Source: Cerasicoccus arenae
GTDB taxonomy: Bacteria; Verrucomicrobiota; Verrucomicrobiia; Opitutales; Cerasicoccaceae
Direction of reading: 5' to 3'
Assembly: GCF_014651635.1 (NCBI RefSeq)
Contig: NZ_BMXG01000016.1
Span: 64,526-97,217 of the forward strand
DNA length: 32,692 bases
Positions within the stretch are counted from its first letter, which is position 1; each line of letters begins with the position of its first letter. The notes under the pieces are model-generated. The model saw only the letters and a list, made by a program, of their open reading frames with translations. It did not search any database and was not told the DNA's origin. The position numbers and the translations under genes were made by a program. Positions 14,423-28,520 of this stretch are shown one piece after another.

Positions 14423-15220
14423 CTATTTCTTCGCGGTGAAAGGCAACCAGTGAGCAATGAACCTATCGAGCATGCCAGCGCCCTGAAGCTTAACCAAAAA
14501 GCCGTTCGCGGCGGCAAGTAGCTCAGGGTTGGACTTGCTGACGCCCCAGGCGATGCGCTCTTGGGTGAGCACAGCGGCAATGGGGCTTAAGCCTGCATTC
14601 TCGTCTTCAGCAGCCAACCACCAGATCGTCGGTGCATCGGCGATGACCATATCTACCCGGCCAGCGGCCAATGATTTGGCGGCGCTCTGGATATCAGAAA
14701 AGGGCACGCGCTCGGCGTAAATAAAAGTCTCCCGAACCAGGAAATCGCCGGTTGTCCCCGGCTCTACCCCCACACGGCCTTGAGTATTCTTGAGCGCGAG
14801 CGTCGTCGGGTATTTGGAAATATCTGCGGCACGTACGAGCGGCATTTGCCCCGTGACCAAATACGGCTTGGAAAAATTAATTCGCACCGCACGGATCTCC
14901 GTCGCCGACATGCCCGACATGATGATGTCGATCTTGCCATCGTTCAGCGCGGGCAACAGCTCGTCCCATTCCATCACGATGAAGTTCAGCGGCACATCCA
15001 AATCCAGAGCGAACGCGCGCGCCAAATCCGCCTCCAGCCCGGATATGCGCTCGTTGTCGATAAAGATCAATGGCGGTTGCTCAGGGTTAATCCCCACACG
15101 TAATTCACCAGTGGGCAAAAACTTCGGTGCCGGCTTGGCAGGAGTCGTTTCATCAGCCCAGAGCGGGGTGAGGCAAAGCCACAAAGCGGCAAGGAGGATT
15201 CGGAAAATGCGGTCAGCCAT
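14423..15220 (-). CDS. Periplasmic amino-acid-type solute-binding protein (SBP family 3)
   Basis: From the ATG at 15220 (MADRIF) the protein is 265 residues, with a signal peptide of about 22 residues ending PLWA. The body shows the family-3 binding-protein pattern: GELRVGINPEQPPLIF, GLEADLARAFA, WDELLPALNDGKIDIIMSGMS, RINFSKPYLVTGQ, GVEPGTTGDFLV and GRVDMVIADAP. Such proteins capture polar amino acids for ABC importers or act as sensor domains. No ABC permease or ATPase lies beside it, so it may be an orphan or serve a distant transporter. An upstream ATG at 15229 is possible; the frame stays open to 15274 but that extension spoils the signal peptide. Confidence 0.88.
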   Translation of the reverse strand: MADRIFRILLAALWLCLTPLWADETTPAKPAPKFLPTGELRVGINPEQPPLIFIDNERISGLEADLARAFALDLDVPLNFIVMEWDELLPALNDGKIDIIMSGMSATEIRAVRINFSKPYLVTGQMPLVRAADISKYPTTLALKNTQGRVGVEPGTTGDFLVRETFIYAERVPFSDIQSAAKSLAAGRVDMVIADAPTIWWLAAEDENAGLSPIAAVLTQERIAWGVSKSNPELLAAANGFLVKLQGAGMLDRFIAHWLPFTAKK

Positions 15221-15317
15221 GGGGGCCATTGTCGTCAGAGCGAGTGAATCGGCAAGCGGTATTTTACACAGCAATCATTACGGCGCATGCCATCATTTTC
15301 ATTAAGAGACCGCCAAT

Positions 15318-16442
15318 TTAAATCCATTTCTTCCGGCGGAAGTAGACCAGAAATGCGATAAAGACAGCCGCCATAAAGCCCAGGCAAATCGGGTAACCCA
15401 TTTTCCAATACAGCTCCGGCATGTTCCATTTGCTGACTGAGTGGTCAAAATTCATCCCGTAAACTCCAGCAATGAACGTGAGCGGCAGGAAAAGCGTGGC
15501 AATGATCGTCAGCACTTTCATGACTTCGTTAGTGCGGTGCTCCTGCTCCAAATGGTAGAATTCTTGCATCGTTTGCAGGATGATTCGGTGGTGGTCCATG
15601 CGGTCCACGGCGCGGCGCGATGAGTCCGCCAAGTCGCGGAAATAAAAACGATCCTCCTCGGCCAACCGTATATGATCGAGTTGCTCCAAACGATTAGCGT
15701 TGTCGCGGATTGGCAGCAAAATGCGCATCAGCGCCAGCACTGCACGCTTTTTGTGATAAATCGTCTCAATGCTCAATCCTGTCTCGTGCGCACGATGTTT
15801 ACGAGCAAGCTTATCGCTATTACACTCCAGCATGCCCTGCTCCATCGCCACGATGTCGTCCTCCACCTCATCCACGATGTCCATCATGAAGTCATTTTTT
15901 ACGTCCATGAGTGCAAAGAGCAGATAGCTGTGACCACGCTGCCGAATCCGTCCACCCCCTTTACGAATGCGCCGGACGATTGGGTCAAAAAGTTTTTCGT
16001 TACTTTCTTGCACGCTCACCAAAAAATTGTCGCCCAGGTAGAACGTGACTTGCTCCATATAGATCGCCTGCTCGTCTTCCTTAAACAAGCCCGCGCGCGT
16101 AAGCACGAAGAGGTCGTCGTCAAACTCGTCTATTTTGGGGCGGCCTTCGGTGTTCAGAATATCCTCAATCGCCAACGCATGCACTCCCAGGCGCGCGCAG
16201 AAATCCGTAATCAACGCATGGTCACTAACGCCGCTAATGTGAATCCAGCTCACGGGGTGCTGGCCGATCGCGGCGATCAGTTCGTCTGGTGAACAATCAT
16301 TCTTCTCCAGATAGTCCGCCTCGCCATAGGCCATGAGCCGGATTTCGGTGTCCGGGCAGATATCGCTCTCCAAAGGAACAACTTCGCCCGGCGGTAAACC
16401 GATGCCGTGGTGAAAAACCGTCTCCCGAGTCACTATTCGCAT
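15318..16442 (-). CDS. corA: CorA-family magnesium/cobalt channel
   Basis: The 374-residue protein has a large cytoplasmic N-terminal domain rich in charged helices (about 1-305), then two transmembrane helices at the C-terminus. Between them lies YGMNFD (328-333), the diagnostic GMN selectivity motif of CorA, preceded by TLFLPLTFIAGV. The end is the basic RRKKWI. CorA forms a homopentamer in the inner membrane and passes Mg2+ or Co2+. The ATG at 16442 starts a normal N-terminus. It is transcribed away from the phage-type cluster and is a probable host gene marking its left side. Confidence 0.95.
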   Translation of the reverse strand: MRIVTRETVFHHGIGLPPGEVVPLESDICPDTEIRLMAYGEADYLEKNDCSPDELIAAIGQHPVSWIHISGVSDHALITDFCARLGVHALAIEDILNTEGRPKIDEFDDDLFVLTRAGLFKEDEQAIYMEQVTFYLGDNFLVSVQESNEKLFDPIVRRIRKGGGRIRQRGHSYLLFALMDVKNDFMMDIVDEVEDDIVAMEQGMLECNSDKLARKHRAHETGLSIETIYHKKRAVLALMRILLPIRDNANRLEQLDHIRLAEEDRFYFRDLADSSRRAVDRMDHHRIILQTMQEFYHLEQEHRTNEVMKVLTIIATLFLPLTFIAGVYGMNFDHSVSKWNMPELYWKMGYPICLGFMAAVFIAFLVYFRRKKWI

Positions 16443-16602
16443 ATTATTCTAAAAAAACTTATTTCTGCGCAATTTCCAACCCTCGTTTTGTGTAAAAACG
16501 GCGCCAACTAGCACGAGGGAATAGCTCCCAGCGTTAACAAATAATAGTGAGAGCCAGAAAATCGCGGCGGCATGCTCAAAAACCGCAAAAAAGTTGCCCA
16601 AC

Positions 16603-16638
16603 CGAGCCAACTCAACCAGCCGAGCCAACTGAGCCAGC
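16603..16638. repeat. Two-copy 18-bp tandem repeat
   Basis: CGAGCCAACTCAACCAGC and CGAGCCAACTGAGCCAGC lie back to back, differing at two positions, with a partial third unit beginning CGACCCA after them. Confidence 0.7.
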
Positions 16639-16681
16639 CGACCCATTGTCAGTCCGGAAATAATTTGTTATTCTCTTTCTA

Positions 16682-16799
16682 TCGTCAGGAGCGAACGGGC
16701 CGCCCCGCTCATCCAAAACCAAAGCAACACCACCCCGAACTCCATCCACCAACGCCACCACCCAACCCCAAGCGAGAGCGGCCCGTTCGCTCCTGACGA
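16682..16799. repeat. 22-bp perfect inverted repeat at left edge of the phage-type cluster
   Basis: Arms at 16682-16703 and 16778-16799 are exact reverse complements (core GGAGCGAACGGGCCGC) around a 74-bp spacer. It could be a terminator-like stem, a recombination or packaging site, or a dispersed host repeat. Confidence 0.75.
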
Positions 16800-16800
16800 C

Positions 16801-16817
16801 ACTTTGCACCGCAAAGT
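16801..16817. repeat. 17-bp palindrome, copy 2
   Basis: ACTTTGC-ACC-GCAAAGT, perfect 7-bp arms, intergenic, directly after the 22-bp inverted repeat. Confidence 0.8.
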
Positions 16818-16890
16818 TAAATCAACATCCACCTCAACCCCAACATCAACCACCACACCCATCCACCAACACCTACCAATCCACAACTAT

Positions 16891-16920
16891 AACCCTTAAT
16901 CTTTAAACTTTAACCTCCCA
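16891..16920 (+). promoter_or_regulatory. CTTTAA-type leader 1
   Basis: A TTAATCTTTAAACTTTAACC leader ending 4 nt before the ATG at 16921. It matches the leaders of five other genes in this cluster and replaces any Shine-Dalgarno sequence. Confidence 0.65.
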
Positions 16921-17370
16921 ATGAACCCCGCCTTTCCCGCTGAACTCGTCACCTTACTTGGTTCCTCCATGTTTGGTGGCCTAATGAAAATGTGGGCCAT
17001 GTCCAATGCTGCCCGTCGCGAAGAGCGACTGCTCGCCATGCAAGCGCTCACTGAGCAAGCAGGCCATATTGACAAGGCTCGTCGTTACTCCAATCCCGGC
17101 TTCCAATGGACTCGCCGCGTCATCGCTCTCACTTGTGTTTTCACGGTGGTTGCCCTGCCCAAGATAATCGCCATCTGGCGCCCGGACATCCTAATGCAAG
17201 TTGGCTACCCGGAGCTCGAAGAGGGCTTCTGGTTCTTCACCAACGACGTGGAAAAAATCCACTGGAAGGAAGTCCGCGGCCTCACCATCACCCCGCTCGA
17301 CACCCACCTGCTCAGCGCAATCGTCGGCCTCTACTTCGGCGGCTCTCTCGCTGGCCACAACCGCGTCTAG
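16921..17370 (+). CDS. Three-transmembrane phage holin-like protein
   Basis: The 149-residue protein has an N-terminal amphipathic segment with a conserved-looking SSMFGGLMKMW, a basic linker (RREER, RRYSNP), a hydrophobic segment (VIALTCVFTVVALPKIIAIW, about 67-86) and a C-terminal SAIVGLYFGGSLAGH. This arrangement fits the 3-TM holin family found in gene transfer agents and Mu-like phages, whose ending typically contains GLYFGG. Holins permeabilise the inner membrane for lysis or particle release. No endolysin gene accompanies it, which is odd. A CTTTAA leader precedes the ATG, and a palindrome copy overlaps the stop codon. Confidence 0.7.
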   Translation: MNPAFPAELVTLLGSSMFGGLMKMWAMSNAARREERLLAMQALTEQAGHIDKARRYSNPGFQWTRRVIALTCVFTVVALPKIIAIWRPDILMQVGYPELEEGFWFFTNDVEKIHWKEVRGLTITPLDTHLLSAIVGLYFGGSLAGHNRV

Positions 17371-17386
17371 CTCTGCATCACAAAGC
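17370..17386. repeat. 17-bp palindrome, copy 3
   Basis: GCTCTGC-ATC-ACAAAGC, overlapping the last base of the holin-like gene's stop codon. Confidence 0.65.
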
Positions 17387-17421
17387 AAAACCAACACCCC
17401 CCCCCAAAAAAAACACCCCAC

Positions 17422-17448
17422 GCCGCTCCCTGCCCCCCAGGGAGCGGC
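17422..17448. repeat. GC-rich hairpin between holin-like and coiled-coil genes
   Basis: A perfect 11-bp stem (GCCGCTCCCTG with CAGGGAGCGGC) closes a CCCCC loop. There is no T-run after it; it may slow transcription or protect an RNA end. Confidence 0.65.
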
Positions 17449-17471
17449 CCCTTCCTCCACCCACACCCAGC

Positions 17472-17512
17472 AAACTTCAACCTTTAATCTTGAAACTTTA
17501 ACCTCCCCCCCC
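17472..17512 (+). promoter_or_regulatory. CTTTAA-type leader 2
   Basis: The element CCTTTAATCTTGAAACTTTA followed by ACCTC and eight C residues runs straight into the ATG at 17513. The homopolymer beside the start codon could alter spacing by slippage. Confidence 0.65.
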
Positions 17513-17839
17513 ATGGACCCCAACCCTGCCTTCCTCGGCGCATTCACCCTTTCTGGCATCACACTTCTCGGCGGCGCGATTCTGCTCATGCGACTTCGCG
17601 AACACCTTGCGGAATCGCCCGACCCCAAGCTCACCTACGCCACACAAACCGACCTACAAAAACTCCGCGACGAATTCGCCGCCCATCAACGCGACCTGAA
17701 AATCGATCACACCGACATCCACCGCCTCATCCGTCAAAACGCCGAACACATCGCCGCCCTCATTGCGCAATCGGAGATCTACACCCAGCGCATCAACGAG
17801 TTCAGCGGCAAGTTCGACCGACTACAATCCCACCACTAA
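17513..17839 (+). CDS. Membrane-anchored coiled-coil phage protein, DUF2730 (Mu gp25)-like
   Basis: The frame is open further upstream, but the ATG at 17513 follows the CTTTAA leader and gives a sensible 108-residue protein. Residues 7-27 (FLGAFTLSGITLLGGAILLM) are one transmembrane helix. Residues about 45-105 form a long charged helix likely to be a coiled coil (LQKLRDEFAAHQRDLKIDHT, QNAEHIAALIAQSEIYTQRI). In Mu-like phages a protein of this shape (DUF2730) lies just before the terminase genes, matching this position. Its role is unknown even in Mu. Assignment rests on size, topology and order. Confidence 0.65.
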   Translation: MDPNPAFLGAFTLSGITLLGGAILLMRLREHLAESPDPKLTYATQTDLQKLRDEFAAHQRDLKIDHTDIHRLIRQNAEHIAALIAQSEIYTQRINEFSGKFDRLQSHH

Positions 17840-17855
17840 CTTTGCGCTACAAAGT
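17839..17855. repeat. 17-bp palindrome, copy 4
   Basis: ACTTTGC-GCT-ACAAAGT, overlapping the last base of the stop codon of the coiled-coil gene. Confidence 0.75.
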
Positions 17856-17903
17856 TACCCCAACCCCCATCCCCTAACAACCCCACAGCGCTACCCACAG
17901 CTA

Positions 17904-17931
17904 CCCGGCGTCGCCACGCAGCGACGCCGGG
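17904..17931. repeat. GC-rich hairpin upstream of small-terminase-like gene
   Basis: CCCGGCGTCGC and GCGACGCCGGG form a perfect 11-bp stem with a 6-nt loop, ending 12 nt before the ATG at 17944. It could limit ribosome access to that start. Confidence 0.65.
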
Positions 17932-17943
17932 CCAGGGCACCCC

Positions 17944-18363
17944 ATGCCTCAAACCCACAATCCAATGCCTTCCTCACCCATCAACTCCTTTAGCAAACAC
18001 ATCGACCAAGTCATCGCCCAGCGTAGACACACCGAACAAATCCTCGAAGTTTCCTGCCCCGGCCACAACACCGCCGAAGCCTCCGTCAGCAAAGCCTGGA
18101 AGTCGCTCTACGGCCTGCTCGCCGAAAATGCCCATCCCGACATTACCGAGCTCAACACGCTCTCTGCAATCATCCACAAACTCACTGGTGCCTTCACCCA
18201 GCTCAAAGCACTCGAATTGAAAATCCGCGAAGCCGACCTCAAACAGGCCGAGTTTGACGCCCGACGACAACAGCTCGAAGCCACCATCCACGACGCCACA
18301 CGCACCACTGGCCTCACTCCCGAGACCATTCAAGAAATCGAACGCCGCCTCAAACTCCTTTAA
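17944..18363 (+). CDS. Small-terminase-like phage protein (position of Mu gp26/gp27)
   Basis: A 139-residue, highly helical, charged protein with no signal peptide. It has coiled-coil character from about 85 to 135 (LKALELKIREADLKQAEFDA). Its place two genes upstream of the large terminase, with only an opposite-strand gene between, fits the Mu gp26-gp27 slot, where gp27 (DUF3486) is thought to be the small terminase. I do not see a diagnostic helix-turn-helix, so this is assignment by position and shape. An internal start (MPSSPINSF) is possible. Unlike its neighbours it lacks a CTTTAA leader and instead has a GC hairpin before the start. Confidence 0.55.
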   Translation: MPQTHNPMPSSPINSFSKHIDQVIAQRRHTEQILEVSCPGHNTAEASVSKAWKSLYGLLAENAHPDITELNTLSAIIHKLTGAFTQLKALELKIREADLKQAEFDARRQQLEATIHDATRTTGLTPETIQEIERRLKLL

Positions 18364-18392
18364 CAATCACCAGACCCACAGATCCAATGAAA

Positions 18393-18770
18393 TCAATTAT
18401 TATCAAAATTTATCCGATTCAGCTTCTGCACAAACTGCTCATAAAAGGCATTGCCCGAGCGCAGCGTTTTCTCCGGCACATCCAGCGTGTCCCACTCCGC
18501 CCCGCTCACCATATTCAAGATCGCAAGCTGCCCAGTGAAAGTGTCGAGGCGCCATAGGTCGCCCTCGGCCGAAATCAAAAACACATAACGCCCGCCCTGC
18601 TGCTGGATAATCCGATCCAGCTTCGCATTGATCGATTCAATGCTCGGCGTCGATTTCGAATTATTGATCCGAACCGTGTTCGCGTTCTGCGCATAAACCG
18701 CGCCAGCCATACCCATCAGAAGCGCAATCAAGAGGATCACCCAACGCCGTCCATTCGTAAATGTTTTCAT
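18393..18770 (-). CDS. Small secreted protein encoded antisense within the phage-type cluster
   Basis: The only minus-strand gene in the cluster. The 125-residue product has a strong signal peptide (about 1-27, MAGAVYAQ) and a helical segment (SIESINAKLDRIIQQQGGRY). It then has RYVFLISAEGDLWRLDTFTGQLAILN, a pattern common in small exported proteins in which a beta strand carries LDTxTG. No catalytic residues are evident. It fits the idea of a moron: an independently expressed cargo gene inside phage genes that changes the host envelope. It is convergent with the upstream phage gene (29-bp gap) and divergent from the terminase. I do not recognise a specific function. Confidence 0.75.
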   Translation of the reverse strand: MKTFTNGRRWVILLIALLMGMAGAVYAQNANTVRINNSKSTPSIESINAKLDRIIQQQGGRYVFLISAEGDLWRLDTFTGQLAILNMVSGAEWDTLDVPEKTLRSGNAFYEQFVQKLNRINFDNN

Positions 18771-18849
18771 GCGTAAACTATGTCATCAACCCCACCGCCT
18801 GTCAATCCAAGCCCATCCCCCCCCCTAAATCGTCCCATCCACACCCACC

Positions 18850-18875
18850 AACTTTAATCTTTAACCTTTAAACTC
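18850..18875 (+). promoter_or_regulatory. CTTTAA-type leader 3
   Basis: AACTTTAATCTTTAACCTTT plus AAACTC abuts the large-terminase ATG at 18876. No Shine-Dalgarno sequence is present. Confidence 0.7.
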
Positions 18876-20285
18876 ATGCCTCCCTTTTTCCTCCCCTATC
18901 AACAACGCTGGATCGAGGACCCCTCCCCCTTCAAGGTGATGGAGAAGTCCCGCCAAATCGGCATTTCCTGGGCCACTGCATACTCTCTCGTTCGTCGAAC
19001 CGCACAGCGTGATCAGCGGCTAGACGCCTGGGTTTCCTCGCGTGACGCCATTCAGGCAAAGCTCTTCCTTGAAGACTGCCGCGCATTCGCCGATGCGCTC
19101 AACCTCGCCGCACAAGACCTCGGCCAAACGCTCATCAGCGCCGAGCGCTCCAGCTCACAAACGCTCAAGCTCGCCTCAGGCCCGCGCATCCACTCCCTCA
19201 CCAGTAACCCCGATGCCCAAGCTGGCAAGCGCGGTGCTCGTGTGCTCGACGAGTTCGCCCTCCACCGCAACCCACGCCAACTCTACGCCATCGCATCTCC
19301 TGGCCTTACTTGGGGCGGCCAGTTGGAAATTATTTCCACCCACCGCGGCTCGCAGAATTTCTTTAGCCAACTCGTCAACGAAGCCCGCCACGGAGGCAAC
19401 CCTAAGGGCATTTCACTCCACCGCGTCACCCTCGAAGACGCACTCGCCGAAGGCTTTCTCGACAAGCTTAAAAACAAGCTCCCGCCCAATGATCCCCGCC
19501 AATCCATGGACACCGCGGATTACTTTAACTTTGTGCGGCAAAGTTGCGCCAGCGAGGAATCCTTCCGACAGGAATACTGCTGCATACCCGCCGATGACAC
19601 TGCCGCATTTTTGCCCTGGGACCTCATTGCCGCCGCCGAATACAGCGACCACGAATCGTGGGAACTCGACCTCCAAACCCATCGCCTCCTCCCCCCCCCA
19701 CACCCTCTCGGTAGTTCAATAAACCGCCCGACTTATGAACCGGTAAACCCCTCCCTCTACCTCGGCGTTGACCTTGCCCGCGATCACGACCTCACCGTCT
19801 TCTGGCTGCTGGAATCGATCGGCGATCAAACTTTCTCCCGCAAAGTAATCTGCCTGAAAAATACCCCGTTTTCTCAGCAAGAAGAAGTCCTCCACAGTCT
19901 GATGCAGCTCCCCGGCCTCCGCCGCGCATGCATCGACGAGACTGGCCTCGGTCGCCAATTCGCCGAACGCGCCCGTGAGCAATACGGCCGCTACCGCGTC
20001 GAGGGCGTCACCTTCACGTCCCCAGTCAAGGAGTCCCTCGCCTATCCGCTCCGCAGCGCACTCGAAGACCGCTGCGTAAAAATCCCCAACGACAAACACA
20101 TCCGTGCCGACTTGCGCGCCATCAAAAAAGAGCCCACCGCAGCCGGCAACATCCGCTTCACCGCCGACCACGGCCCCAACGGCCACGCCGACCGTTTCTG
20201 GGCCCTCGCCCTCGCCCTCCATGCCAGCACGCGTCCCATCCACCAACCTTACCTCGAACCCCTCACCCGCACCCGTCGCTTCTAA
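18876..20285 (+). CDS. Phage large terminase, Mu gp28-like
   Basis: The 469-residue packaging motor starts with the ATPase: adenine-binding PYQQRW at 7-12, a Walker-A-like EKSRQIGISWA at 23-33, Walker B RVLDEFAL at 122-129 and coupling motif IISTHRGS at 152-159. A nuclease domain follows with conserved acids in GVDLARDHD (about 297), CIDETGLG (about 351) and GHADRFWALALA (about 435). This two-domain form cuts DNA and pumps it into the prohead using ATP. All key residues are present, so the gene appears functional. Two palindrome copies lie inside it (encoding NFVRQS and QTFSRK), and a run of nine C (19691-19699) encodes a PPP stretch between the two domains. Confidence 0.92.
   Translation: MPPFFLPYQQRWIEDPSPFKVMEKSRQIGISWATAYSLVRRTAQRDQRLDAWVSSRDAIQAKLFLEDCRAFADALNLAAQDLGQTLISAERSSSQTLKLASGPRIHSLTSNPDAQAGKRGARVLDEFALHRNPRQLYAIASPGLTWGGQLEIISTHRGSQNFFSQLVNEARHGGNPKGISLHRVTLEDALAEGFLDKLKNKLPPNDPRQSMDTADYFNFVRQSCASEESFRQEYCCIPADDTAAFLPWDLIAAAEYSDHESWELDLQTHRLLPPPHPLGSSINRPTYEPVNPSLYLGVDLARDHDLTVFWLLESIGDQTFSRKVICLKNTPFSQQEEVLHSLMQLPGLRRACIDETGLGRQFAERAREQYGRYRVEGVTFTSPVKESLAYPLRSALEDRCVKIPNDKHIRADLRAIKKEPTAAGNIRFTADHGPNGHADRFWALALALHASTRPIHQPYLEPLTRTRRF
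19528..19544. repeat. 17-bp palindrome, copy 5 (inside terminase)
   Basis: ACTTTGT-GCG-GCAAAGT, read in frame as NFVRQS. Confidence 0.75.
19830..19846. repeat. 17-bp palindrome, copy 6 (inside terminase)
   Basis: ACTTTCT-CCC-GCAAAGT, read in frame as TFSRKV. Confidence 0.65.
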
Positions 20286-20358
20286 ATCAACTCGCACCAC
20301 CACCACCACCACCCCACACCCACCTGCCCCGCATCCCCCACACACAAACACCCACCAC

Positions 20359-20390
20359 ACTTTAACCTTTAATCTTTAAACTTTAACCTC
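20359..20390 (+). promoter_or_regulatory. CTTTAA-type leader 4
   Basis: The longest copy: four CTTTAA-like units in tandem ending ACTTTAACCTC directly at the portal ATG (20391). The 73 bp before it are almost pure A/C with CAC repeats. Confidence 0.7.
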
Positions 20391-21566
20391 ATGAAAACCA
20401 CCCCCACCCACCTGCGCCGCTCGCGTCGCCACGCATTCAACCCCGTTCGTTCGCTCACACCCGAAGGACTGACCCGCCAGCTTGACGCCTTTCATGCTGG
20501 ATCACTCGCCGAAGCCGCCCGCCTCTGGGAAGTCATTGAGCAGCGCGACGACCTCATTAAGGCCGTCGCCACCAAACGCAAAAAAGCCCCCGGGCGATTT
20601 GGCTGGGATATCGTTGCCGACGATGACTCGCCAATCGCTTTGCAACACAAAGCTTCTTTGGAAGACTTCTACCGCAACATCGATTCCACCAACGCCGCCG
20701 ATCAAAATGAACGCGGAGGAATGGCCCTCCTTCTCCGCCAAATGATGGACGCCATCGGCAAACGCTACGCCGTTCATGAAATCGTTTGGAGCCCGCAACC
20801 CCGCAACGACTCCCCCCCCCGCCTAACCGCGAGTTTCCGATTTGTCCCATTGTGGTTCTTTGAAAACCGCACCGGCCAACTCCGCTTTTTGCCCAATGAT
20901 CTATCCACCCAGGGCCACACCCTGCGCGATGGCGAGTGGCTCATCACGACCGGCGATGGCCTCATGGAAGCAACTGCCGTCGCCTATCTCTTCAAGCATC
21001 TCCCCCTCCGAGACTGGCTGATCTACTGCGAACGCAACGGCATGCCCGGCGTCCGCGGCGTAACCGACGCCACCCCAGGCAGCGCCGAATGGGAGTCCGC
21101 CCGCGACGCCGTGCACGACTTCGGCGCCGAGTTCCACGCACTCATGGCTCGCGGCACCGACATCGAAGCAATCGATTTATCCAGCACCGGCCAACTCCCC
21201 TATCCGCAACTCGTTGACCGCATGGATAAAGCAATAGCGACCCTCTGGCGTGGCTCCTCCATGGGCTCAATAGCCGACAGCGGCGCAGGCATTACTTTGC
21301 AAGGCAAAGAAACTGCACTTATTGAACGGGAGGACGTCGCCCACCTCTCAGAGACACTTCACGGTCAAGTCGATCGCTGGGTCACGCACTACCTATTCGG
21401 TCAAAAACCGCGCGCCCGCATCGTAATCCGCCACAAGGAAAGTACCCAAACAAACGAGGGTTCTGAAATTGCCCGAGACGTTCTAATCGCCGCCCTCCCC
21501 AAAGCCCTGACCTCGCTCATAACACGCTTTCTACAACCAACTCAAACTCTGCAACACAAAGCTTAA
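20391..21566 (+). CDS. Phage portal protein, DUF935 (Mu gp29)-like
   Basis: A 391-residue protein matching the DUF935 portal family: LWEVIEQRDDLIKAVATKRK (about 45-64), the GMALLLRQMMDAIGKRYAVHEIVW segment (about 110-135), FRFVPLWFFENRTGQLRFLP, a LPLRDWLIYCERNGMPG segment and a C-terminal ITLQGKE-ALIERED region. It is shorter than Mu gp29 (about 510 residues). Portals form the dodecameric ring through which DNA enters the capsid and to which a tail would attach. Three palindrome copies occur in it, one forming its last codons (TLQHKA), and a run of nine C (20812-20820) encodes DSPPR, a slippage-prone site. Confidence 0.88.
   Translation: MKTTPTHLRRSRRHAFNPVRSLTPEGLTRQLDAFHAGSLAEAARLWEVIEQRDDLIKAVATKRKKAPGRFGWDIVADDDSPIALQHKASLEDFYRNIDSTNAADQNERGGMALLLRQMMDAIGKRYAVHEIVWSPQPRNDSPPRLTASFRFVPLWFFENRTGQLRFLPNDLSTQGHTLRDGEWLITTGDGLMEATAVAYLFKHLPLRDWLIYCERNGMPGVRGVTDATPGSAEWESARDAVHDFGAEFHALMARGTDIEAIDLSSTGQLPYPQLVDRMDKAIATLWRGSSMGSIADSGAGITLQGKETALIEREDVAHLSETLHGQVDRWVTHYLFGQKPRARIVIRHKESTQTNEGSEIARDVLIAALPKALTSLITRFLQPTQTLQHKA
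20637..20653. repeat. 17-bp palindrome, copy 7 (inside portal)
   Basis: GCTTTGC-AAC-ACAAAGC, read in frame as ALQHKA. Confidence 0.75.
21294..21310. repeat. 17-bp palindrome, copy 8 (inside portal)
   Basis: ACTTTGC-AAG-GCAAAGA, read in frame as TLQGKE; the outermost pair is mismatched. Confidence 0.6.
21546..21562. repeat. 17-bp palindrome, copy 9 (portal C-terminus)
   Basis: ACTCTGC-AAC-ACAAAGC, encoding the last residues TLQHKA before the portal stop codon. Confidence 0.7.
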
Positions 21567-21594
21567 TCCCTCTCCTCCAAAAAAAACACTTCTC

Positions 21595-22464
21595 ATGAAA
21601 ACCAACATAGCCCCCGGTCTCACCAGTGAGATCCCCTCTGCTACTCAACGCTCAAGCGCATGGCTCCGCCTCGCTGAATACGGCGACTGGCACCATTCGC
21701 AAGGCATGCAACGCTTCACTCGCGAATCCGCTCAAGGCATCGTACGGCATTTCAAGTCCCTTCGCGGACGCCTCGCTCGAAAATTCGGAGGCCTGCCAAT
21801 CTACATCGGCCACCCAGACGACGATCACTTTGCAGGGCAAAGCGGACATACCGACACCCGTTCCTACGCCTGGATTGACGCCCTCGACGCACGCCCAGAC
21901 GGACTTTACATCCTTCCTCACTGGTCAGAAGCGGGGCAAAACATCCTCCGTAACGCCTTCTATAAATTCCTCTCGCCGCGTTGGGCCATGCGACCACTTA
22001 GCGACGGCACCTTTGAGCCAATCCGCCTGATCTCAGTTGGGCTGACCAACCACCCCAACATCCCCGGCGACGCCATTGCCAATGAGCAATCCGCCACCGC
22101 CGCATACCCGTCAACCCCCGAGCACGTCTCCCTTACCAACGAGCGTCAAGAGCACATTGGCACCATCCTCGACGATGCCGTCCTCGCTGGCGTCATCGCG
22201 CCTAATGAAGTGAGCCGCTGGGAGGCAGGTTTGCAGGCAGATTTAGAGCGCGGTCTTTCGGAACTCAACGCCCGCCAGCCCGCACTCAAGACCGTTGCTT
22301 GCACGGAGCAACTCCGCTCCCGAGCCAGCGCCAATCAAGCCAGTGGAGATTTCCTTGCCCACGTCAATGAACGCATTTCCCGCACCGGTGAAGCCTTTGC
22401 CGTCGCGTGGTGCGCCATCAAGCAAGAGCGGCCCGATCTCTTCGATCAATTTAATACTTTCTAA
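21595..22464 (+). CDS. Mu I-type phage prohead protease (and possible scaffold)
   Basis: A 289-residue protein with the landmarks of the Mu I protein family: GLPIYIGHPDD (about 66-76), SYAWIDALDARPDGLY, YKFLSPRWAM (about 122) and ISVGLTNHPNIPG (about 146-158). The C-terminal part (about 185-285) is helical and charged, in keeping with a fused scaffold region. In Mu this protein clips head proteins during prohead maturation. It lacks the CTTTAA leader and follows the portal by 28 bp. One palindrome copy encodes HFAGQS at about 78-83. Its stop overlaps the ATG of the next frame by one base (TAATG), permitting translational coupling. Confidence 0.85.
   Translation: MKTNIAPGLTSEIPSATQRSSAWLRLAEYGDWHHSQGMQRFTRESAQGIVRHFKSLRGRLARKFGGLPIYIGHPDDDHFAGQSGHTDTRSYAWIDALDARPDGLYILPHWSEAGQNILRNAFYKFLSPRWAMRPLSDGTFEPIRLISVGLTNHPNIPGDAIANEQSATAAYPSTPEHVSLTNERQEHIGTILDDAVLAGVIAPNEVSRWEAGLQADLERGLSELNARQPALKTVACTEQLRSRASANQASGDFLAHVNERISRTGEAFAVAWCAIKQERPDLFDQFNTF
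21827..21843. repeat. 17-bp palindrome, copy 10 (inside protease)
   Basis: ACTTTGC-AGG-GCAAAGC, read in frame as HFAGQS. Confidence 0.75.
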
Positions 22465-22490
22465 TGCAGAGCGACTTTCTATCGCAAAGC
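22456..22490. repeat. 17-bp palindrome doublet, copies 11 and 12
   Basis: ACTTTCT-AAT-GCAGAGC (22456-22472) and ACTTTCT-ATC-GCAAAGC (22474-22490) are spaced at exactly 18 bp. The first spans the stop/start junction of two genes; the second would encode DFLSQS if translation starts at 22464. Confidence 0.7.
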
Positions 22491-22529
22491 ATCAACCAAA
22501 CAAACCAACACAACGATACAAAAAACCAA

Positions 22530-23072
22530 ATGAATACCCTAAAAAACATCCTCCTCGCCCTCTTCTGCGCGCGTCCCGTTTTCGCCAATGTGGCGACTGG
22601 CGTCCACGAAGGCGGCATCACGAAAACGCTCGAGACAGCGACGACTACACGTCACTTGATCGGCAAAGCTGGTAGCACTGAAGCCGAAGTCGACCTTTGC
22701 GACGCCGCAGACCTGCCGCTAGGCGTCATCACAGACGAAGGCACCGTTGGCGAGCCCGTCAATATCGCGCTGCTCGGTGCCGTGCCCAGCACACTGCTCA
22801 TGGTCGCTAGTAAGCCCATTTCCGCGGGCAGCAGTGTCTACACCGCCGCCAACGGAAAAGTCCAGGACCAGCCCACACTCGCCGGTGACTACTACCACAT
22901 CGGCTATGCCCTCACCGCTGCCGCGAGCGATGGCGAACGACTTGAAGTATGCCCCGTTCCACCACGCAAAACAAAAGTCATGAATACATTCTCCGGCACT
23001 ACCAGCGAGGACATCGCCAACCTGGGCGCAGCCCTACAAGCCGCACCAGATAAAATCATCGTCCTCCCATAA
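22530..23072 (+). CDS. Head decoration-like phage protein
   Basis: The gene lies between protease and major capsid, the usual slot for a head-stabilising or decoration protein. From the ATG at 22530 it has 180 residues: a hydrophobic start (NILLALFCARPVFANVA), then a compact beta-rich region whose TRHLIGKAG, ADLPLGVITDEG and PISAGSSVYTAANGKV follow the pattern of capsid-stabilising (DUF2190-like) proteins. A longer form from the ATG at 22464 would add 22 polar residues encoded largely by the palindrome doublet; its TAATG overlap with the upstream stop makes that start credible too. The signal-peptide-like start is unexpected for a capsid protein. Confidence 0.65.
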   Translation: MNTLKNILLALFCARPVFANVATGVHEGGITKTLETATTTRHLIGKAGSTEAEVDLCDAADLPLGVITDEGTVGEPVNIALLGAVPSTLLMVASKPISAGSSVYTAANGKVQDQPTLAGDYYHIGYALTAAASDGERLEVCPVPPRKTKVMNTFSGTTSEDIANLGAALQAAPDKIIVLP

Positions 23073-23119
23073 CCCCCCATAAAACCTAAACAAGAAACAT
23101 CCAAATCCAAAGCAATCCT

Positions 23120-24043
23120 ATGACCACCCCATCCATCAACGAAATCCACGCGGCCAATGAAAGCCGCTTCAACGCCGCTCACTTCAGCGAAGCGCTCACC
23201 GCCTTTACGGTCGGCTGGCAAGATCCCGAAAACTTGGCCACGCTGCTCGATTTCGTCGCGCCGTCCGTCAACGTAGGCCGTCGATTCGAGTTCAAACGAG
23301 CAGACAACGCTGAAGCGTTTTTCTCCGAGACCGACGATCTTCGCGCCATTGGAAGCACCTTCAAACGTGTCGATTATCGCGGTGAATCCGTGCAGGCGAA
23401 AACCCTCAACAAGGGCCTTACCGTCCGCGTCGACCATGACGAAATCACCACTTCGGATTGGGAGGAACGCACCGTTCAAATCCTGCTCCAGCGCCTGCTC
23501 CGCAATGAACTGCGGCGGGCGATTACGGCGCTGGACACCGCAGCCACCAACGGCAATAAAGTCTGGGACGACTCCACCAATCCCGACGGTGATTTGCGCA
23601 CCATGCTGATCGCCGCCGCCGATGAATCCGGCATTCGCCCGAACCGTCTCATCCTCGGCGAAGGCGCATGGGACCTACGCGCCAGCGCCTACGAATCCCA
23701 AAACAATGCGGGTGCCAACACCGGCGCAAACTATACGCTTAGCGACTTGGCCCGCAAGTTGTTCCTGGACGATGCGCGTGTTTTCTCGTCACGCTACCAG
23801 AGCAGCGCCGCGACCAAAAGCGCCATTGTCGGCAATGCCGTCTACGCGTTTTTCGGCCAGCAAGCCCTGAGCAAAGACGAACCGTCAAATCTGAAGCGAT
23901 TCGTGACGCCGAGCGAAGGCGGCGACTTCCGCGTCTTCCGTGAAGAGCACACGAAGTTCACCGACATCACCGTCGAGCACTACAGCACCGTTGTCGCCAC
24001 GAGCAACCTCGGCATCCGCAAGCTGACCGTCAGCGCCTCCTAA
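23120..24043 (+). CDS. Phage major capsid protein
   Basis: A 307-residue soluble protein with size and pattern of an HK97-fold major head protein of the Mu T/E-like type: an N-terminal helical arm, a beta-rich section (VGRRFEFKRADNAEAF, FKRVDYRGESVQAKTLNKG) and helices with an LLQRLLRNELRRAI spine. Further on are RPNRLILGEGAWDLR, TLSDLARKLFLDDARVF and a C-terminal TDITVEHYSTVVATSNLGIRKL strand. Its position after protease and decoration genes supports the call. It is the only large gene of the cluster with no palindrome copy inside, and it has no CTTTAA leader or obvious Shine-Dalgarno sequence. Confidence 0.8.
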   Translation: MTTPSINEIHAANESRFNAAHFSEALTAFTVGWQDPENLATLLDFVAPSVNVGRRFEFKRADNAEAFFSETDDLRAIGSTFKRVDYRGESVQAKTLNKGLTVRVDHDEITTSDWEERTVQILLQRLLRNELRRAITALDTAATNGNKVWDDSTNPDGDLRTMLIAAADESGIRPNRLILGEGAWDLRASAYESQNNAGANTGANYTLSDLARKLFLDDARVFSSRYQSSAATKSAIVGNAVYAFFGQQALSKDEPSNLKRFVTPSEGGDFRVFREEHTKFTDITVEHYSTVVATSNLGIRKLTVSAS

Positions 24044-24089
24044 CCCTCAACTTGGCGCAGGCACGTCCGACCCGTCCAGCGCCATCTAA

Positions 24090-24124
24090 ACTCTGCACTA
24101 CAAAGCTACTCTCCGATACAAAGT
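24090..24124. repeat. 17-bp palindrome doublet, copies 13 and 14
   Basis: ACTCTGC-ACT-ACAAAGC (24090-24106) and ACTCTCC-GAT-ACAAAGT (24108-24124) are 18 bp apart in the capsid-connector intergenic gap. Confidence 0.7.
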
Positions 24125-24133
24125 AACGAATCC

Positions 24134-24162
24134 AACTTTAATTTTAACACCCCCCCAACACC
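24134..24162 (+). promoter_or_regulatory. CTTTAA-type leader 5 (degenerate)
   Basis: AACTTTAATTTTAACAC followed by a C-run ends at the ATG at 24163. It is a shorter version of the leader found before other cluster genes. Confidence 0.5.
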
Positions 24163-24624
24163 ATGACCCCTTGGATTTCCCTCACCGAATCGCACGTTGA
24201 CCTTTTGTTAACCGCCGCACAGCGCGAAAGCCTTGCAGCGCGCCCAAATCAAGGCTTCGACAACGACCTGCTAACGCTCGCCATTGCTGAAGTCACGCTC
24301 CGCATGCGACTCGCCATCCGCGAGCAAGCGACCAACCAATTGAGCGCCAGCCAAAGCGCACTGCCGCCAGAGACCATCTCCTCATCCGCCGCACTTTGCC
24401 TGGGCGCACTCGACGGCAAGCTACCCGGCTTCTCGCTAACCGAAGCGCAAGACACAATGCTTGAATTGGCCATCGACTCCCTAGTCGAAATCAGCACAGG
24501 GGCATTGCCCGTCAGCACGCCAATCGACCCAGAATCCGCCGCCATCGTCCGCCGCACTTTCGGCCTTTTCGTTTCCAACCGTCGCCCACGCGCCGCCACA
24601 GCCACCCGCCTAGCCGGCCTTTAA
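24163..24624 (+). CDS. Putative head-completion/connector protein (Mu gp36 position)
   Basis: A 153-residue mostly helical protein with no signal peptide or membrane segment. The start WISLTESHVDLLLTAAQRES and the later LTLAIAEVTLRMRLAI resemble the arrangement in gp36-type (DUF1320) proteins, where a helical bundle closes the portal. Order after the major capsid supports a connector role. Sequence evidence is weak and the call is mainly positional. The gene directly after it is the fibre, with no tail genes between. Confidence 0.5.
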   Translation: MTPWISLTESHVDLLLTAAQRESLAARPNQGFDNDLLTLAIAEVTLRMRLAIREQATNQLSASQSALPPETISSSAALCLGALDGKLPGFSLTEAQDTMLELAIDSLVEISTGALPVSTPIDPESAAIVRRTFGLFVSNRRPRAATATRLAGL

Positions 24625-24640
24625 AACCAATCCCCCCCTC

Positions 24641-24667
24641 AACTTTAAACTTCAACCTCCTCCAACT
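24641..24667 (+). promoter_or_regulatory. CTTTAA-type leader 6
   Basis: AACTTTAAACTTCAACCTCC followed by TCCAACT precedes the fibre ATG at 24668. Confidence 0.55.
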
Positions 24668-26479
24668 ATGTCCACTTTTCCCCGCGCCCGCATCCGCATT
24701 GCGGCCGATATGTTTCAGTTCGAAAATTTCGCTGACGAGCTTCGCAGTGGCTTGTCGGGCTTCATTCCCAAGCTACGCGCCGGCGACGACGCGCAGTTTG
24801 AAATCGCGCTATTTAACGATGGTGAGTTATTGACCGACCTCTCCGGCATCAGCAGCCTGCACCTCGAAATCAAGCCGCTACACGCTGAAGCTGAGCCTGC
24901 GTTTATCGACGACGACGGCGAAGACTACGATCTCCGCGGCCCGTCGTCGCAGGCAGTTTCAATCCGCTCAAAAACCATTGCCGCCAGCGAAATGAACGCG
25001 GCACTGACGTTGACCCAGTGGGAGTCCCTCTCTGCTGATCAAGCGCACGCCATTGTCACGCTCGATGCCCCCCAAACCAATCTCGCGCCCGGTGACCGCT
25101 GGCTGACGATTGCCGTAACGACCAACGACAGCCCCGCCCAAACACGCACCGTGGCCGCGGGGCGCATCCGCATACTTGGTGGCGGACGCAGCAGCAGCGA
25201 GCCAGTTTCTTCATCCAGCGAAACATTTTACTCTGCATCGCAAAGTGATTCTCGATTCTTGCGCCTCTCGGAAAACTTAGCCGATCTAAGCGATGCGGAA
25301 GAATCCCGCGGAAACTTGGGCCTAGGCAGCGCCGCACAGATGAATGCCATCGACGAGGATGACTTTGCATCGCAAAGTAATTTACATTTACCCACTCAGC
25401 AGAGCGTAAAAACCTACGTGGATACAGCTCTTGCTGCCTTTTCGCCGACTATTCCGCGCCCTGGCGTGTTGCTCGATGGCATTAGCGGGAAGATCAATCT
25501 CGGCAACGCCTTCAACCAAGACATGACTGCTGACTGGGCCGTCTGCGGATGGTTTCGAACGGATTTGGGAGCAGAGCAAACCTTGTTGCACAAAGGCGAA
25601 TCGACGCCGCACCTTCAAATAAGCCTGACTAGTAGCGGGCTGCTGCGCGTAACTTTGGATGACGGATCAGACAGCGTAAGCGTGGACACTACAGCCGTGG
25701 TTAACGACGGGCAATGGCACCATTTTGTCGTCAGTATCGATGTCGATAGCGCCATTGGAGTCGCGGTTTACATGGATGGCCAGCTTCAGGCGACGGGCGA
25801 CCCCACGGCGCTTGGCGACCTGAGCAATGAGGACCCACTGTATATAGGTTCCTCTGGATCGTCACTTTACTTCAGCGGATCACTCAGTGGCTTTGGCTTT
25901 CTCAGCCAATCTTTGAGCAGCGATGAAGTTGCCCAATTGCGCGAACACGATCTGAGCAGCTGGATAGCCGTGAATGACACAAGCGACTTGGAGATCGCGC
26001 TGCCGCTCGACGAGGGGGTGGGCTATCAGGTGCATGACCTGTCCGGCCATCAGCACGATGGGCTTGCGAGCACTACCGGCGTGAAGCATCTGGCCCCTAA
26101 AAGCGAAGGCTACCTGCGCGCCTATGACGTCGATGCCTACAACGGCGGCACGGGTAACGTGGAGCTGATCAGCAGCACGCAGGACATCCTGCCGACAGAC
26201 AAAGCCCTCATTACGCGCCTCTTGGTTTTTGGCAACAACGGCGGCAGCACGGTCTCCGATATCGACATCCTCCGGAGCAATCGCTCAACGACATCGCCGC
26301 TTCTGGACACAACGGCCTCCATCATTCATGGTGGCACCGTCGGCATCGCAGTTGCCGTCTTGGGTAACGTCGCCCAGGGATTGTTTCGCAACAACGTCGT
26401 CATCCATTCCACGGACCCTCAGGCAACCAGCCTGGATATCCGGATCGACTACACCTGCCTCCAGGGAGGCGCGCTCTAA
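24668..26479 (+). CDS. Phage fibre / adhesin with LamG-like lectin domain
   Basis: The 603-residue protein has an N-terminal domain (about 1-175) with a beta-sandwich look (FEIALFNDGELLTDLSGIS, DRWLTIAVTTND). A linker typical of tail fibres follows (LSDAEESRGNLGLGSAAQ about 205-225 and LPTQQSVKTYVD about 241-252). Residues about 265-425 are a LamG/concanavalin-like lectin domain (WAVCGWFRTD, DGQWHHFVVSIDV, AVYMDGQLQATG, PLYIGSSG). A distinct C-terminal domain follows (about 465-603). Such a protein should bind a surface glycan. It carries two palindrome copies (YSASQS and DFASQS). Its stop overlaps the methyltransferase stop on the other strand. A fibre directly after head genes, without a tail, is unusual. 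Confidence 0.8.
   Translation: MSTFPRARIRIAADMFQFENFADELRSGLSGFIPKLRAGDDAQFEIALFNDGELLTDLSGISSLHLEIKPLHAEAEPAFIDDDGEDYDLRGPSSQAVSIRSKTIAASEMNAALTLTQWESLSADQAHAIVTLDAPQTNLAPGDRWLTIAVTTNDSPAQTRTVAAGRIRILGGGRSSSEPVSSSSETFYSASQSDSRFLRLSENLADLSDAEESRGNLGLGSAAQMNAIDEDDFASQSNLHLPTQQSVKTYVDTALAAFSPTIPRPGVLLDGISGKINLGNAFNQDMTADWAVCGWFRTDLGAEQTLLHKGESTPHLQISLTSSGLLRVTLDDGSDSVSVDTTAVVNDGQWHHFVVSIDVDSAIGVAVYMDGQLQATGDPTALGDLSNEDPLYIGSSGSSLYFSGSLSGFGFLSQSLSSDEVAQLREHDLSSWIAVNDTSDLEIALPLDEGVGYQVHDLSGHQHDGLASTTGVKHLAPKSEGYLRAYDVDAYNGGTGNVELISSTQDILPTDKALITRLLVFGNNGGSTVSDIDILRSNRSTTSPLLDTTASIIHGGTVGIAVAVLGNVAQGLFRNNVVIHSTDPQATSLDIRIDYTCLQGGAL
25230..25246. repeat. 17-bp palindrome, copy 15 (inside fibre)
   Basis: ACTCTGC-ATC-GCAAAGT, read in frame as YSASQS. 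Confidence 0.75.
25362..25378. repeat. 17-bp palindrome, copy 16 (inside fibre)
   Basis: ACTTTGC-ATC-GCAAAGT, perfect arms, read in frame as DFASQS next to the LPTQQS linker. Confidence 0.8.
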
Positions 26480-27429
26480 GCTCCATGCTTTGTAACGCAA
26501 AGCAAGAATGTAGCAACCGCATGATCGCTGGCACTGTGGGAACGCAGTGTCGGCGTGAAGTGCGGACGGGCGACCTCTACCAGCTCACGACTGGCATCCC
26601 AGATCTCACTCGAAACTTCAGCCGCCGGAATGTCGCCGAGTGCTTCCTTGTTACCCACAAGATGACGAATCAACACGGAAAAATCGCCATCGAGCGATTC
26701 CGCCCATTGACGGTAAGTTTGAAAACGCACGCGGTTAGGACGGCCGGTATTTTGCACCATGAGACGGTGCAACGCAGGCGGCGTATCCATCCAAGCCAAC
26801 TCGCCCCAGCGCTTGAGCAAACCAAGGTTCCGCAAGTCAATAACGTGCAACATGCGCCCGCCCGGCTTCAGCCGATCATAGCAGAGCTGCAGCAGTGGCA
26901 CCGGATCGAGCACGTGCTGAAAAACGCTGTTGCTGATAATCAGGTCATACGCCGCCGGATCGCTGCGCAAGTGATCTTCCGCCGCAACTCCCTGAATCAA
27001 GCGGAAGTCATTAAAGATACCATCAATACTCTGCGACGCAAAGCGACTTTGCCGAACAAAGTTTCGTTTTTCTTTTTCACGCTCCAGAAGAATTTCTGCT
27101 ACAAGACGTTCACGCTCCCGATCATGTTGCGATTGAAAGCGCTCAAAGAAAGTTACGCTCTCAGCACCACGTGCACGCATCAGCACCCCCCCCGCCAACG
27201 AATCACCTGGGCCAAGTTCGCAAACATCGCCATGATAAGCCCCCCCCCCCAGAATTTCCTCAAACAGGCCAACATACCACTCCGCATAATCGGCAGATTT
27301 CTCCGGCGAGTAGCGCGCATGGCGCTTCCCGCTGCCAAGCGATTTGATACCGAGCCTACGGCCCAACCCCAGCGCGAGGTCCGACATCACGTAGGCGTAG
27401 CAGGCAAGGCGTTGACGAAGACTAGACAT
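26476..27429 (-). CDS. SAM-dependent methyltransferase of the polysaccharide operon, with 11-G tract
   Basis: From the ATG at 27429 (MSSLRQRL) the protein has 317 residues; the frame is open to 27522, but that extension looks unlike coding sequence. SAM-binding motif I is CELGPGDSLAGG (about 67-78), with later ISNSVFQHVLDP and LKPGGRMLHVIDL, a class I Rossmann methyltransferase. As last gene of a polysaccharide export operon it probably methylates a sugar, perhaps capping the chain end. A tract of 11 G (27240-27250 on the plus strand reads C) encodes LGGGA just before motif I, and 8 G (27186-27193) follow; slippage at either would destroy the enzyme. Three palindrome copies lie inside, encoding NFVRQS, RFASQS and the C-terminal VTK. 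Confidence 0.85.
   Translation of the reverse strand: MSSLRQRLACYAYVMSDLALGLGRRLGIKSLGSGKRHARYSPEKSADYAEWYVGLFEEILGGGAYHGDVCELGPGDSLAGGVLMRARGAESVTFFERFQSQHDRERERLVAEILLEREKEKRNFVRQSRFASQSIDGIFNDFRLIQGVAAEDHLRSDPAAYDLIISNSVFQHVLDPVPLLQLCYDRLKPGGRMLHVIDLRNLGLLKRWGELAWMDTPPALHRLMVQNTGRPNRVRFQTYRQWAESLDGDFSVLIRHLVGNKEALGDIPAAEVSSEIWDASRELVEVARPHFTPTLRSHSASDHAVATFLLCVTKHGA
26487..26503. repeat. 17-bp palindrome, copy 17 (methyltransferase C-terminus)
   Basis: GCTTTGT-AAC-GCAAAGC, 7 bp past the phage fibre stop, inside the host-type methyltransferase gene. Confidence 0.75.
27028..27062. repeat. 17-bp palindrome doublet, copies 18 and 19 (inside methyltransferase)
   Basis: ACTCTGC-GAC-GCAAAGC (27028-27044) and ACTTTGC-CGA-ACAAAGT (27046-27062) are 18 bp apart. 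On the coding strand they read NFVRQS and RFASQS in one frame. Confidence 0.8.
27240..27250. repeat. Homopolymer tract, 11 C (11 G on coding strand)
   Basis: A simple-sequence tract inside the methyltransferase coding region, long enough for slipped-strand mispairing and on/off switching. Confidence 0.85.
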
Positions 27430-27615
27430 AACCGCCCGCCGAGGAATAAGGTAGAGCAAATCGTTCGAGGGCCCCAGTTCCTGCCAGGCGAACCAGCAAT
27501 ACGTTCTGCGAACTGGGGACAATCCGCGCCAGCTTTGGACATGGCTCCCAGAGCGCGCAGCACCTTGCTTGGAGGCAACGACCGAGCTGGAAGAGGTGGT
27601 TCATGGCGAGTGTGT

Positions 27616-28428: not shown

Positions 28429-28439
28429 GAAGCTTTACT

Positions 28440-28520
28440 TGCCGCAAAGAGGCCCAAAAGAGCGCAAAATGATTATCGGTTGAGTATACATCTTTGCGAA
28501 TCTTGTGCTTATTTGCGGCA
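28440..28520. repeat. Inverted repeat in the gap between exporter permease and ATPase genes
   Basis: TGCCGCAAA (28440-28448) and TTTGCGGCA (28512-28520) are perfect 9-bp inverted arms, one next to the permease stop. The long loop has another CGCAAA/TTTGCG pair. It might set differential expression within the operon. Confidence 0.5.

Follow-up and report, generated by a model that had tools for sequence, protein, structure and literature searches.

An ancient, vertically inherited Mu/B3-type phage head maintained by Cerasicoccus arenae and other Opitutales, most likely similar to gene transfer agents

The genes of gene transfer agents (GTAs) are under purifying selection. The well-studied GTAs are mostly alphaproteobacterial, as stated in PMC12946183, and those of the RcGTA type in Alphaproteobacteria are vertically inherited clusters of phage structural genes with accessory genes at several loci, while the GTAs of Brachyspira, Desulfovibrio, Methanococcus and Bartonella are described as genetically distinct domestications of phage genes (both from PMC11841831). 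Phage B3 (Beetrevirus, AF232233) has the gene order small terminase (TerS), large terminase (TerL), portal, protease, capsid and gp36. Here, we analysed a block of genes with this order at positions 16921-26479 (plus strand) of a 32,692-nucleotide stretch of the genome of Cerasicoccus arenae, hereafter the window (contig NZ_BMXG01000016.1, 64526-97217; genome of 4.13 Mb in 63 contigs; Opitutia, Puniceicoccales, Cerasicoccaceae in the NCBI taxonomy). The block runs g1, g2, TerS, TerL, portal, protease, cement, major capsid protein (MCP), connector and LamG fibre; its head and packaging genes are open frames and, apart from the small antisense gene g3b, all genes lie on the plus strand (Table 1).

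The strongest statement supported by our data is that these genes encode a host-maintained, vertically inherited phage head. Going further, we read the cluster, with a probability of about 0.6, as an ancient, vertically inherited and host-maintained head of Mu/B3 type (a viriform) that is most likely GTA-like. As in GTAs, we found vertical inheritance and purifying selection without recognised replication or integration genes; a delivery apparatus was not found in the window genome and is partly present, in the form of a hub, in the families f7, f10, f17, f25 and f27 (here and below f denotes a family, G a genome, L a locus or contig, and f1-g2 is a genus of the window's family). As in Mu/B3 phages, the head and packaging genes are in order; unlike in these phages, no tail module was recognised. 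The cluster differs from RcGTA in its Mu/B3-type terminase and portal ancestor, its lack of a full tail and its occurrence in another phylum. The GTAs of Brachyspira, Desulfovibrio, Methanococcus and Bartonella have demonstrated activity; by contrast with these and with RcGTA, the Cerasicoccus cluster is known from its genes.

TerL is 54% identical to that of B3, but the block is without the gp30-like and gpG-like genes, transposase, repressor, endolysin and tape measure of that phage. The gp30- and gpG-like genes of B3 lie between portal and protease, where the window has a gap of 28 bases, so that the head set is not strictly complete. A first-pass annotation, made from the letters of the window, had described a complete Mu-type head module; the genes that it named are indeed present, open and in Mu/B3 order, and only the completeness has to be given up. 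At 1e-5 the window MCP had no tblastn match in 50,697 phage records, and the ten portal matches listed were 24-26% identical. Taken together, the contigs L114, L133, L142 and L161 encode homologues of portal, protease, MCP, connector, terminator-like protein, ring and hub; they differ from the cluster in additionally having a 310-390-amino-acid (aa) tube-type candidate and a 727-1046-aa protein in tape-measure position (both assigned by position only).

The position of the cluster is largely conserved within the family. The first-pass annotation had suggested looking for the block at the same locus in related genomes, and the gene of the CorA Mg2+ transporter adjoins the cluster in 8/9 loci of the family. 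In all four Cerasicoccus loci CorA is directly beside the cluster, with the solute-binding gene behind CorA; four f1-g2 loci (L041-L044) have a large gene between CorA and the cluster, which in L044 encodes a subtilase-LamG protein. A LolA-like downstream neighbour in f1-g2, f21 and f5 was tried as a synteny marker and not used, with 21-32% identity between families.

A tree of TerL, portal and MCP for 23 genomes from eight families had 18 of its 20 splits in common with the rpoB tree, compared with an average of 0.2 and at most 4 in 2000 label permutations, and the two splits found in the head tree only had supports of 63/38 and 55/15. With 34 genomes, 23/31 splits were common (chance maximum 3). 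Here a single split of each tree was both conflicting and well supported, with 98/93 for the head genes and 100/98 for rpoB, and for some rows of this larger set the program flagged long branches and odd composition. Usable rpoB sequences were obtained from 23 of 30 genomes in the first set (six without match, G129 a fragment) and from 25 of 30 in the second (three without match, G001 in pieces, G014 in fragments).

Within the order, a portal match was detected in 60/132 genomes, at 45% identity or more in 48 of them spanning 13 families, and 23 of these 48 carriers are assemblies of 0.8-1.1 Mb; in one carrier, G130, the portal is divided between two contigs. Class-wide, an MCP relative was found at E 0.001 in 31/286 genomes, and family-wide in 9/10 species, as a single copy in each. 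TerL immediately precedes the portal in 19/20 relatives fetched (the exception being L057), and the order portal-protease-MCP is found in 20/20. The sample codes of many of the metagenome-assembled genomes recorded as 'Puniceicoccales' presumably denote termite-gut samples. Two IMG/VR contigs filed as viruses, L139 and L140, resemble the domesticated arrangement, with g1 and TerS to hub and no tape-measure-type gene called, and may be chromosome fragments; in L140, a 281-aa tube-type gene was called between terminator and ring.

The head genes are under strong purifying selection, as measured by pairwise ratios of nonsynonymous to synonymous substitution (omega, dN/dS; NG86, 300 codon bootstraps). 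Within Cerasicoccus, MCP gave an omega of 0.04-0.09, the portal 0.05-0.19, TerL 0.16-0.24, the protease 0.12-0.18 and g1 0.02-0.10, all with bootstrap upper bounds of 0.31 or less, compared with 0.04-0.05 for rpoB; for g3b, omega was 0.09-0.28. In other pairs, MCP omega was 0.06 (f5), 0.16 (f1-g2) and 0.27 (f21). The compared pairs span a synonymous divergence (dS) of 0.3-1.5 with full-length frames, except for one f5 TerL cut by a contig end. In three species pairs without connector and locus fibre, the head genes are as constrained as in pairs having them. Relaxed selection and frameshifts in orthologous blocks had been named by the first-pass annotation as grounds for abandoning its view of a retained head; we saw no relaxation for terminase or capsid in the species pairs compared, and the frames of these pairs are intact, although breaks occur in G058 and G017. 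The TerL ATPase and nuclease motifs are kept in B3 and in 36/36 Opitutales rows from 35 genomes, with rows below 400 aa omitted (G006 and G047, cut by contig ends) and G051 counted twice. Codon usage was considered as a sign of high expression and left unused, the result being mixed: the cluster was nearer to rpoB than the flanking genes were in 6/11 genomes, the window's own not among them.

The tail side appears, from gene content, to have been lost stepwise. Within the window's family there is a gradient from connector and fibre (window species, f1-g2) over connector only (G083) and neither (three Cerasicoccus) to no copy found (G117). The cluster of the remaining three Cerasicoccus stops at MCP, inside contigs of 149-855 kb; there is no fibre at the locus, to which the search for fibres was limited. 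Mapped clusters of f7, f10, f17, f25 and f27 retain connector, terminator-like gene, ring and hub, with ring and hub adjacent and no gene between them in L057, L065 and L066, and no tape measure was recognised in lineages keeping ring and hub. The hub profile matched 8/25 genomes (f7, f10, three of f17, f25, f27 and, partly, f13), none of the ten genomes of the window's family and none of the f4, f5, f6 and f21 genomes tested. A fuller tail side follows MCP in L114, L142, L155 and L161, namely a 310-404-aa tube-type candidate, a ring (132-223 aa) and a 727-1033-aa protein in tape-measure position, while L133 has a 673-aa hub relative downstream. An 807-aa protein of L036 was rejected as tape measure; over residues 52-134, it matches a tail-fibre family and a family of unknown function. 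With no hub or recognised tail, and with sister species that lack a detectable connector, a classical tailed GTA could not be built from this cluster.

The folds assigned to ring and hub come from AlphaFold models of L082 proteins, not those of the window. The ring model (132 aa; predicted local distance difference test, pLDDT, 89) has a tail-tube/Dit/Hcp fold (Foldseek E 3.5e-4), its top structural match among those listed having Z 9.9 and a root-mean-square deviation (rmsd) of 3.5 over 124 aligned residues. The hub model (582 aa, pLDDT 80) has a gp27/VgrG-type hub fold, with Z 21.8, rmsd 3.2 and 299 aligned for its match and Z 17.9 for Mu gp44, again among the matches listed. When the alignments of connector, terminator-like protein and ring were compared as profiles with individual B3 proteins, no match was convincing.

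In two families the genes are scattered over loci. In 5/6 genomes of f17 the best TerL is off the portal contig or, in G036, on it at a distance of more than 1.6 Mb; the sixth genome has it 3.4 kb upstream, inverted. Extra TerL copies at 55-58% identity, which we interpret as prophages, occur in three f17 genomes. The connector, terminator-like gene and fibre of both f5 genomes are on another contig, where the neighbours are host-like by eye in G031 and which is only 5 kb long in G047. A cluster in this state is not inherited as one mobile element, which fits a host function, much as PMC11841831 describes the accessory genes of GTAs, and would not be expected of an autonomous phage.

Several observations count against an ancient, host-maintained, GTA-like head and have to be set beside those above. 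Some genes of the cluster evolve faster, namely TerS (omega 0.28-0.74), cement (0.20-0.62 within Cerasicoccus) and, in the other pairs compared, connector (0.23-0.29) as well as fibre (0.39-0.52). The tail side of the window cluster consists of connector and LamG fibre only, with no hub in the genome, and a profile search found no connector in the assemblies of the three other Cerasicoccus. In G117, a member of the window's family, MCP, portal and connector were undetected, and among the 48 portal carriers the gene has one stop in G058 and is in two pieces on one contig in G017 (50% complete). The rpoB tree joins f25 with f27 (98/96 support), a split absent from the head tree, and presence and absence across the 48 genomes of an rpoB tree, 34 of them carriers, require at least seven changes, which fits ancient presence with several losses without being proof of it. 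In the MCP tree, which omits contig rows of up to 200 aa, the domesticated rows are on one side of a branch with 89% support, and L032 and L141, which have tail-type genes, fall among them; a single domestication is therefore not proven. L141 has two adjacent MCP copies, and its MCP groups with the domesticated copy of f5 (84% support).

The main rival, which we consider unlikely but by no means negligible, is a domesticated head with a use other than transfer, for example a DNA-filled or empty intracellular capsid, a decoy or a device for altruistic lysis, for which tail loss would be adaptive. Strong purifying selection that persists in three Cerasicoccus without detectable connector or locus fibre, intact TerL motifs and a hub missing from all ten family genomes agree with this, but relatives keep hub, ring and fibres, so that delivery is indicated as the ancestral role. 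Moreover, g1, at the lysis-gene position, is among the most conserved Cerasicoccus genes, and non-homologous tail genes may lie elsewhere in these genomes, where fibres were not searched for. A slowly decaying remnant of an ancestral prophage, kept by chance, seems improbable. It would account for the stepwise loss inside the family and for the broken portals of G058 and G017, and PMC6920513 (2019) reports that scaffold_15 of 'Ca. Marcellius' has TerL together with two Mu-like genes in what is called a 'degraded prophage'; the cluster is also found on L108, which is scaffold_15 of 'Puniceicoccaceae bacterium 5H', possibly the same genome. Omega far below 1 at the dS of the compared pairs, with full-length frames, congruence with rpoB over eight families and retention in assemblies of 0.8-1.1 Mb speak against it. 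We reject plain decay of the head genes because of their dN/dS values, and for the tail side we accept it as possible; the earlier argument that retained motifs contradict decay holds for the head and does not extend to the tail side.

Active phages or prophages that have their tail genes elsewhere and integrate repeatedly near CorA would find their counterparts in L114, L133, L142 and L161, related contigs from Opitutales and IMG/VR that have genes of tail type, but tree congruence, the single MCP per family genome and the lack of a recognised integration gene make them very improbable. With the queries used, the host genome has one copy each of TerL, portal, MCP and connector and no match to the hub profile, nor to the ring profile in a search without positive control; we accordingly rejected the idea that this genome has a further copy, or a tail at another place, fibres not having been searched genome-wide. 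A complete Mu-like phage elsewhere, of which the block would be a rearranged fragment, is contradicted by the lack of a second B3-like TerL, portal or MCP, and the split prophage that had been proposed exists in a sense in f5 (connector, fibre) and f17 (TerL), but no second half was found in the window genome. The distant B3-like prophage-type regions of G054 (L251, G054:C4) and G040 (L252, G040:C24) are likewise separate from the domesticated cluster in the same genomes. Among the block proteins, Pfam and PHROGs recognised neither MuA nor MuB. The MuA profile PF02914 matched nothing in 15 genomes, a search that is uninformative because 14 control genomes were likewise silent. A phage satellite with its own head genes and a helper's tail, also among the earlier proposals, would explain head genes without tail genes and is the least credible of the explanations: among the block proteins, Pfam, PHROGs and NCBIfam recognised none for replication, integration, regulation, capsid redirection or helper hijacking, and the block is inherited vertically and in place. 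Vertical inheritance, one MCP per family genome, purifying selection and split loci strongly favour the remaining proposal of the first-pass annotation, a domesticated capsid or GTA-like particle.

On the GTA-like reading, the cluster would be expressed in some cells. MCP, protease and cement would build a capsid around the portal, and TerS and TerL would load host DNA with a headful-type motor; because TerL, portal, protease and MCP are intact, we infer packing of host DNA, and small particles carrying the bacterium's own DNA are probably produced. The gp36-like connector would seal the portal and bear the LamG fibre, which would bind surface glycans, and particles would be released via g1 and g2 or unlinked genes. 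Several other lineages, including small-genome and gut lineages, also encode a stub tail of a terminator-like protein, a tube-like ring and a gp27-type hub, so that their particle would probably carry DNA with a short tail. The window's family has lost the hub, and no ring was found in the window genome, so any delivery would take place via other proteins or by release of DNA at the surface. DNA transfer is here the least certain step, as no tail was found, and a fibre on the connector could serve attachment only. We tentatively propose, at slightly less than even odds for the whole, that an ancient viriform of Mu/B3 descent, present in many families of Opitutales, began as a phage with a tail, was reduced in several lineages to a particle whose stub tail has hub and ring, and became in Cerasicoccaceae a tailless fibre-bearing or connector-less head, and that it still packs DNA and is still selected, even where the genome measures only about 1 Mb or less.

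Table 1. Genes of the block and flanking host genes, with positions in the window
Feature	Position	Strand	Basis
Family 3 solute-binding protein (flanking host gene)	14423..15274	-	SBP_bac_3 1e-29
CorA Mg2+ transporter (flanking host gene)	15318..16442	-	Pfam CorA 1e-55; shared flank marker
g1, 149-aa conserved membrane protein	16921..17370	+	phrog_38283 (unknown) 1.9e-8; one clear transmembrane segment (hydropathy)
g2, 104-aa protein with N-terminal transmembrane helix, spanin/Rz-like by position only	17525..17839	+	Hydropathy
TerS, Mu gp27-like small terminase	17944..18363	+	Phage_Mu_Gp27 E 0.008, phrog_426 E 0.008 (both weak); precedes TerL
g3b, 125 aa, signal-like N-terminus, antisense between TerS and TerL	18393..18770	-	tblastn
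TerL, large terminase (ATPase and RNase H-like nuclease)	18876..20285	+	Terminase_6C 4e-16, Terminase_6N 1e-9
Portal	20391..21566	+	Portal_Mu 2.9e-55
Head maturation protease, Mu gpI-like	21595..22464	+	Mu-like_Pro 1.4e-11, phrog_328 5e-15
Cement/decoration-like head protein	22464..23072	+	Phage_cement_2 2.8e-8; phrog_673 5e-11 (annotated head scaffolding)
MCP	23120..24043	+	phrog_1005 2.6e-12; 19-row alignment
Connector, Mu gp36-like head-tail adaptor	24163..24624	+	By orthologue L044
Fibre with LamG lectin domain (residues 272-422)	24668..26479	+	Laminin_G_3 4.5e-19

g1 and g2 sit where phage B3 has its lysis genes. The window g1 has no Pfam match, and no family was common to more than one of ten orthologues even at E 10; with no supporting Pfam match, a GTA-holin identity was dropped and 'holin-like' describes its position only. 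The g2 gene has no NCBIfam match; the loci in which it also occurs include G083 and those of the three remaining Cerasicoccus species. By tblastn, g3b was found in six loci of the family, those of all four Cerasicoccus and L043 and L045, and may be a cargo or control protein specific to the family; L043 and L045 have a further small antisense gene beside it. The window connector itself has no family match (Pfam, PHROGs, NCBIfam), and its L044 orthologue matches Phage_Mu_Gp36 at 0.0016, under the curated cut-off. The window fibre groups with fibres of f1, f5 and f21 relatives, the likeness of the N-termini being judged by eye.

As the first-pass annotation described, the connector is followed by the LamG fibre and then by host genes, which are convergent and encode a methyltransferase, an ABC-2 exporter pair and two proteins of the GDP-mannose 4,6-dehydratase family. 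It also stands that integration, regulation, lysis-enzyme and tail genes are missing: Pfam, PHROGs and NCBIfam scans recognised no tail, integrase or endolysin gene in the block, and no tail module was recognised in the block or in the scanned flanking genes. Key absences were verified via tblastn, profile search or inspection of open reading frames (ORFs). The gene caller was custom-built and called some antisense frames in skewed stretches. A 1027-aa frame at 26485-29568 (plus strand) has no family match, is antisense to host genes with Pfam matches and is most likely a spurious ORF. GC skew is -0.17 to -0.37 per kb over 16000-25000, and C-rich third codon positions in the cluster (GC skew -0.29 to -0.49) are shared by the window, L038-L041 and L044, not by G083. 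Further upstream, a tRNA-Gly(CCC) lies at 14237-14311 (minus strand), 2.6 kb from the block with two host genes in between, and a 1205-aa protein without Pfam match at 1e-5 is encoded at 10209-13826 (minus strand).

In the literature searched, judged on titles and abstract openings, we found no report of a comparable system in Verrucomicrobiota, Opitutales or Cerasicoccus, and the main text of the gut study PMC12946183 does not mention Verrucomicrobia, Opitutales, Puniceicoccales or Akkermansia. A domesticated phage particle is a known kind of system; as far as we searched, what is new is the lineage, the ancestral phage and the lack of a tail. If our reading is true, an independently derived, ancient phage-head system extends across a verrucomicrobial order and is kept even in assemblies of about 0.8-1.1 Mb, and hosts would retain packaging heads over very long times. 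The graded loss of the tail would make it testable whether delivery is the selected trait, and the strains in culture, Cerasicoccus frondis NBRC 105381 and C. maritimus NBRC 105382, allow a direct search for particles and the DNA packaged in them.

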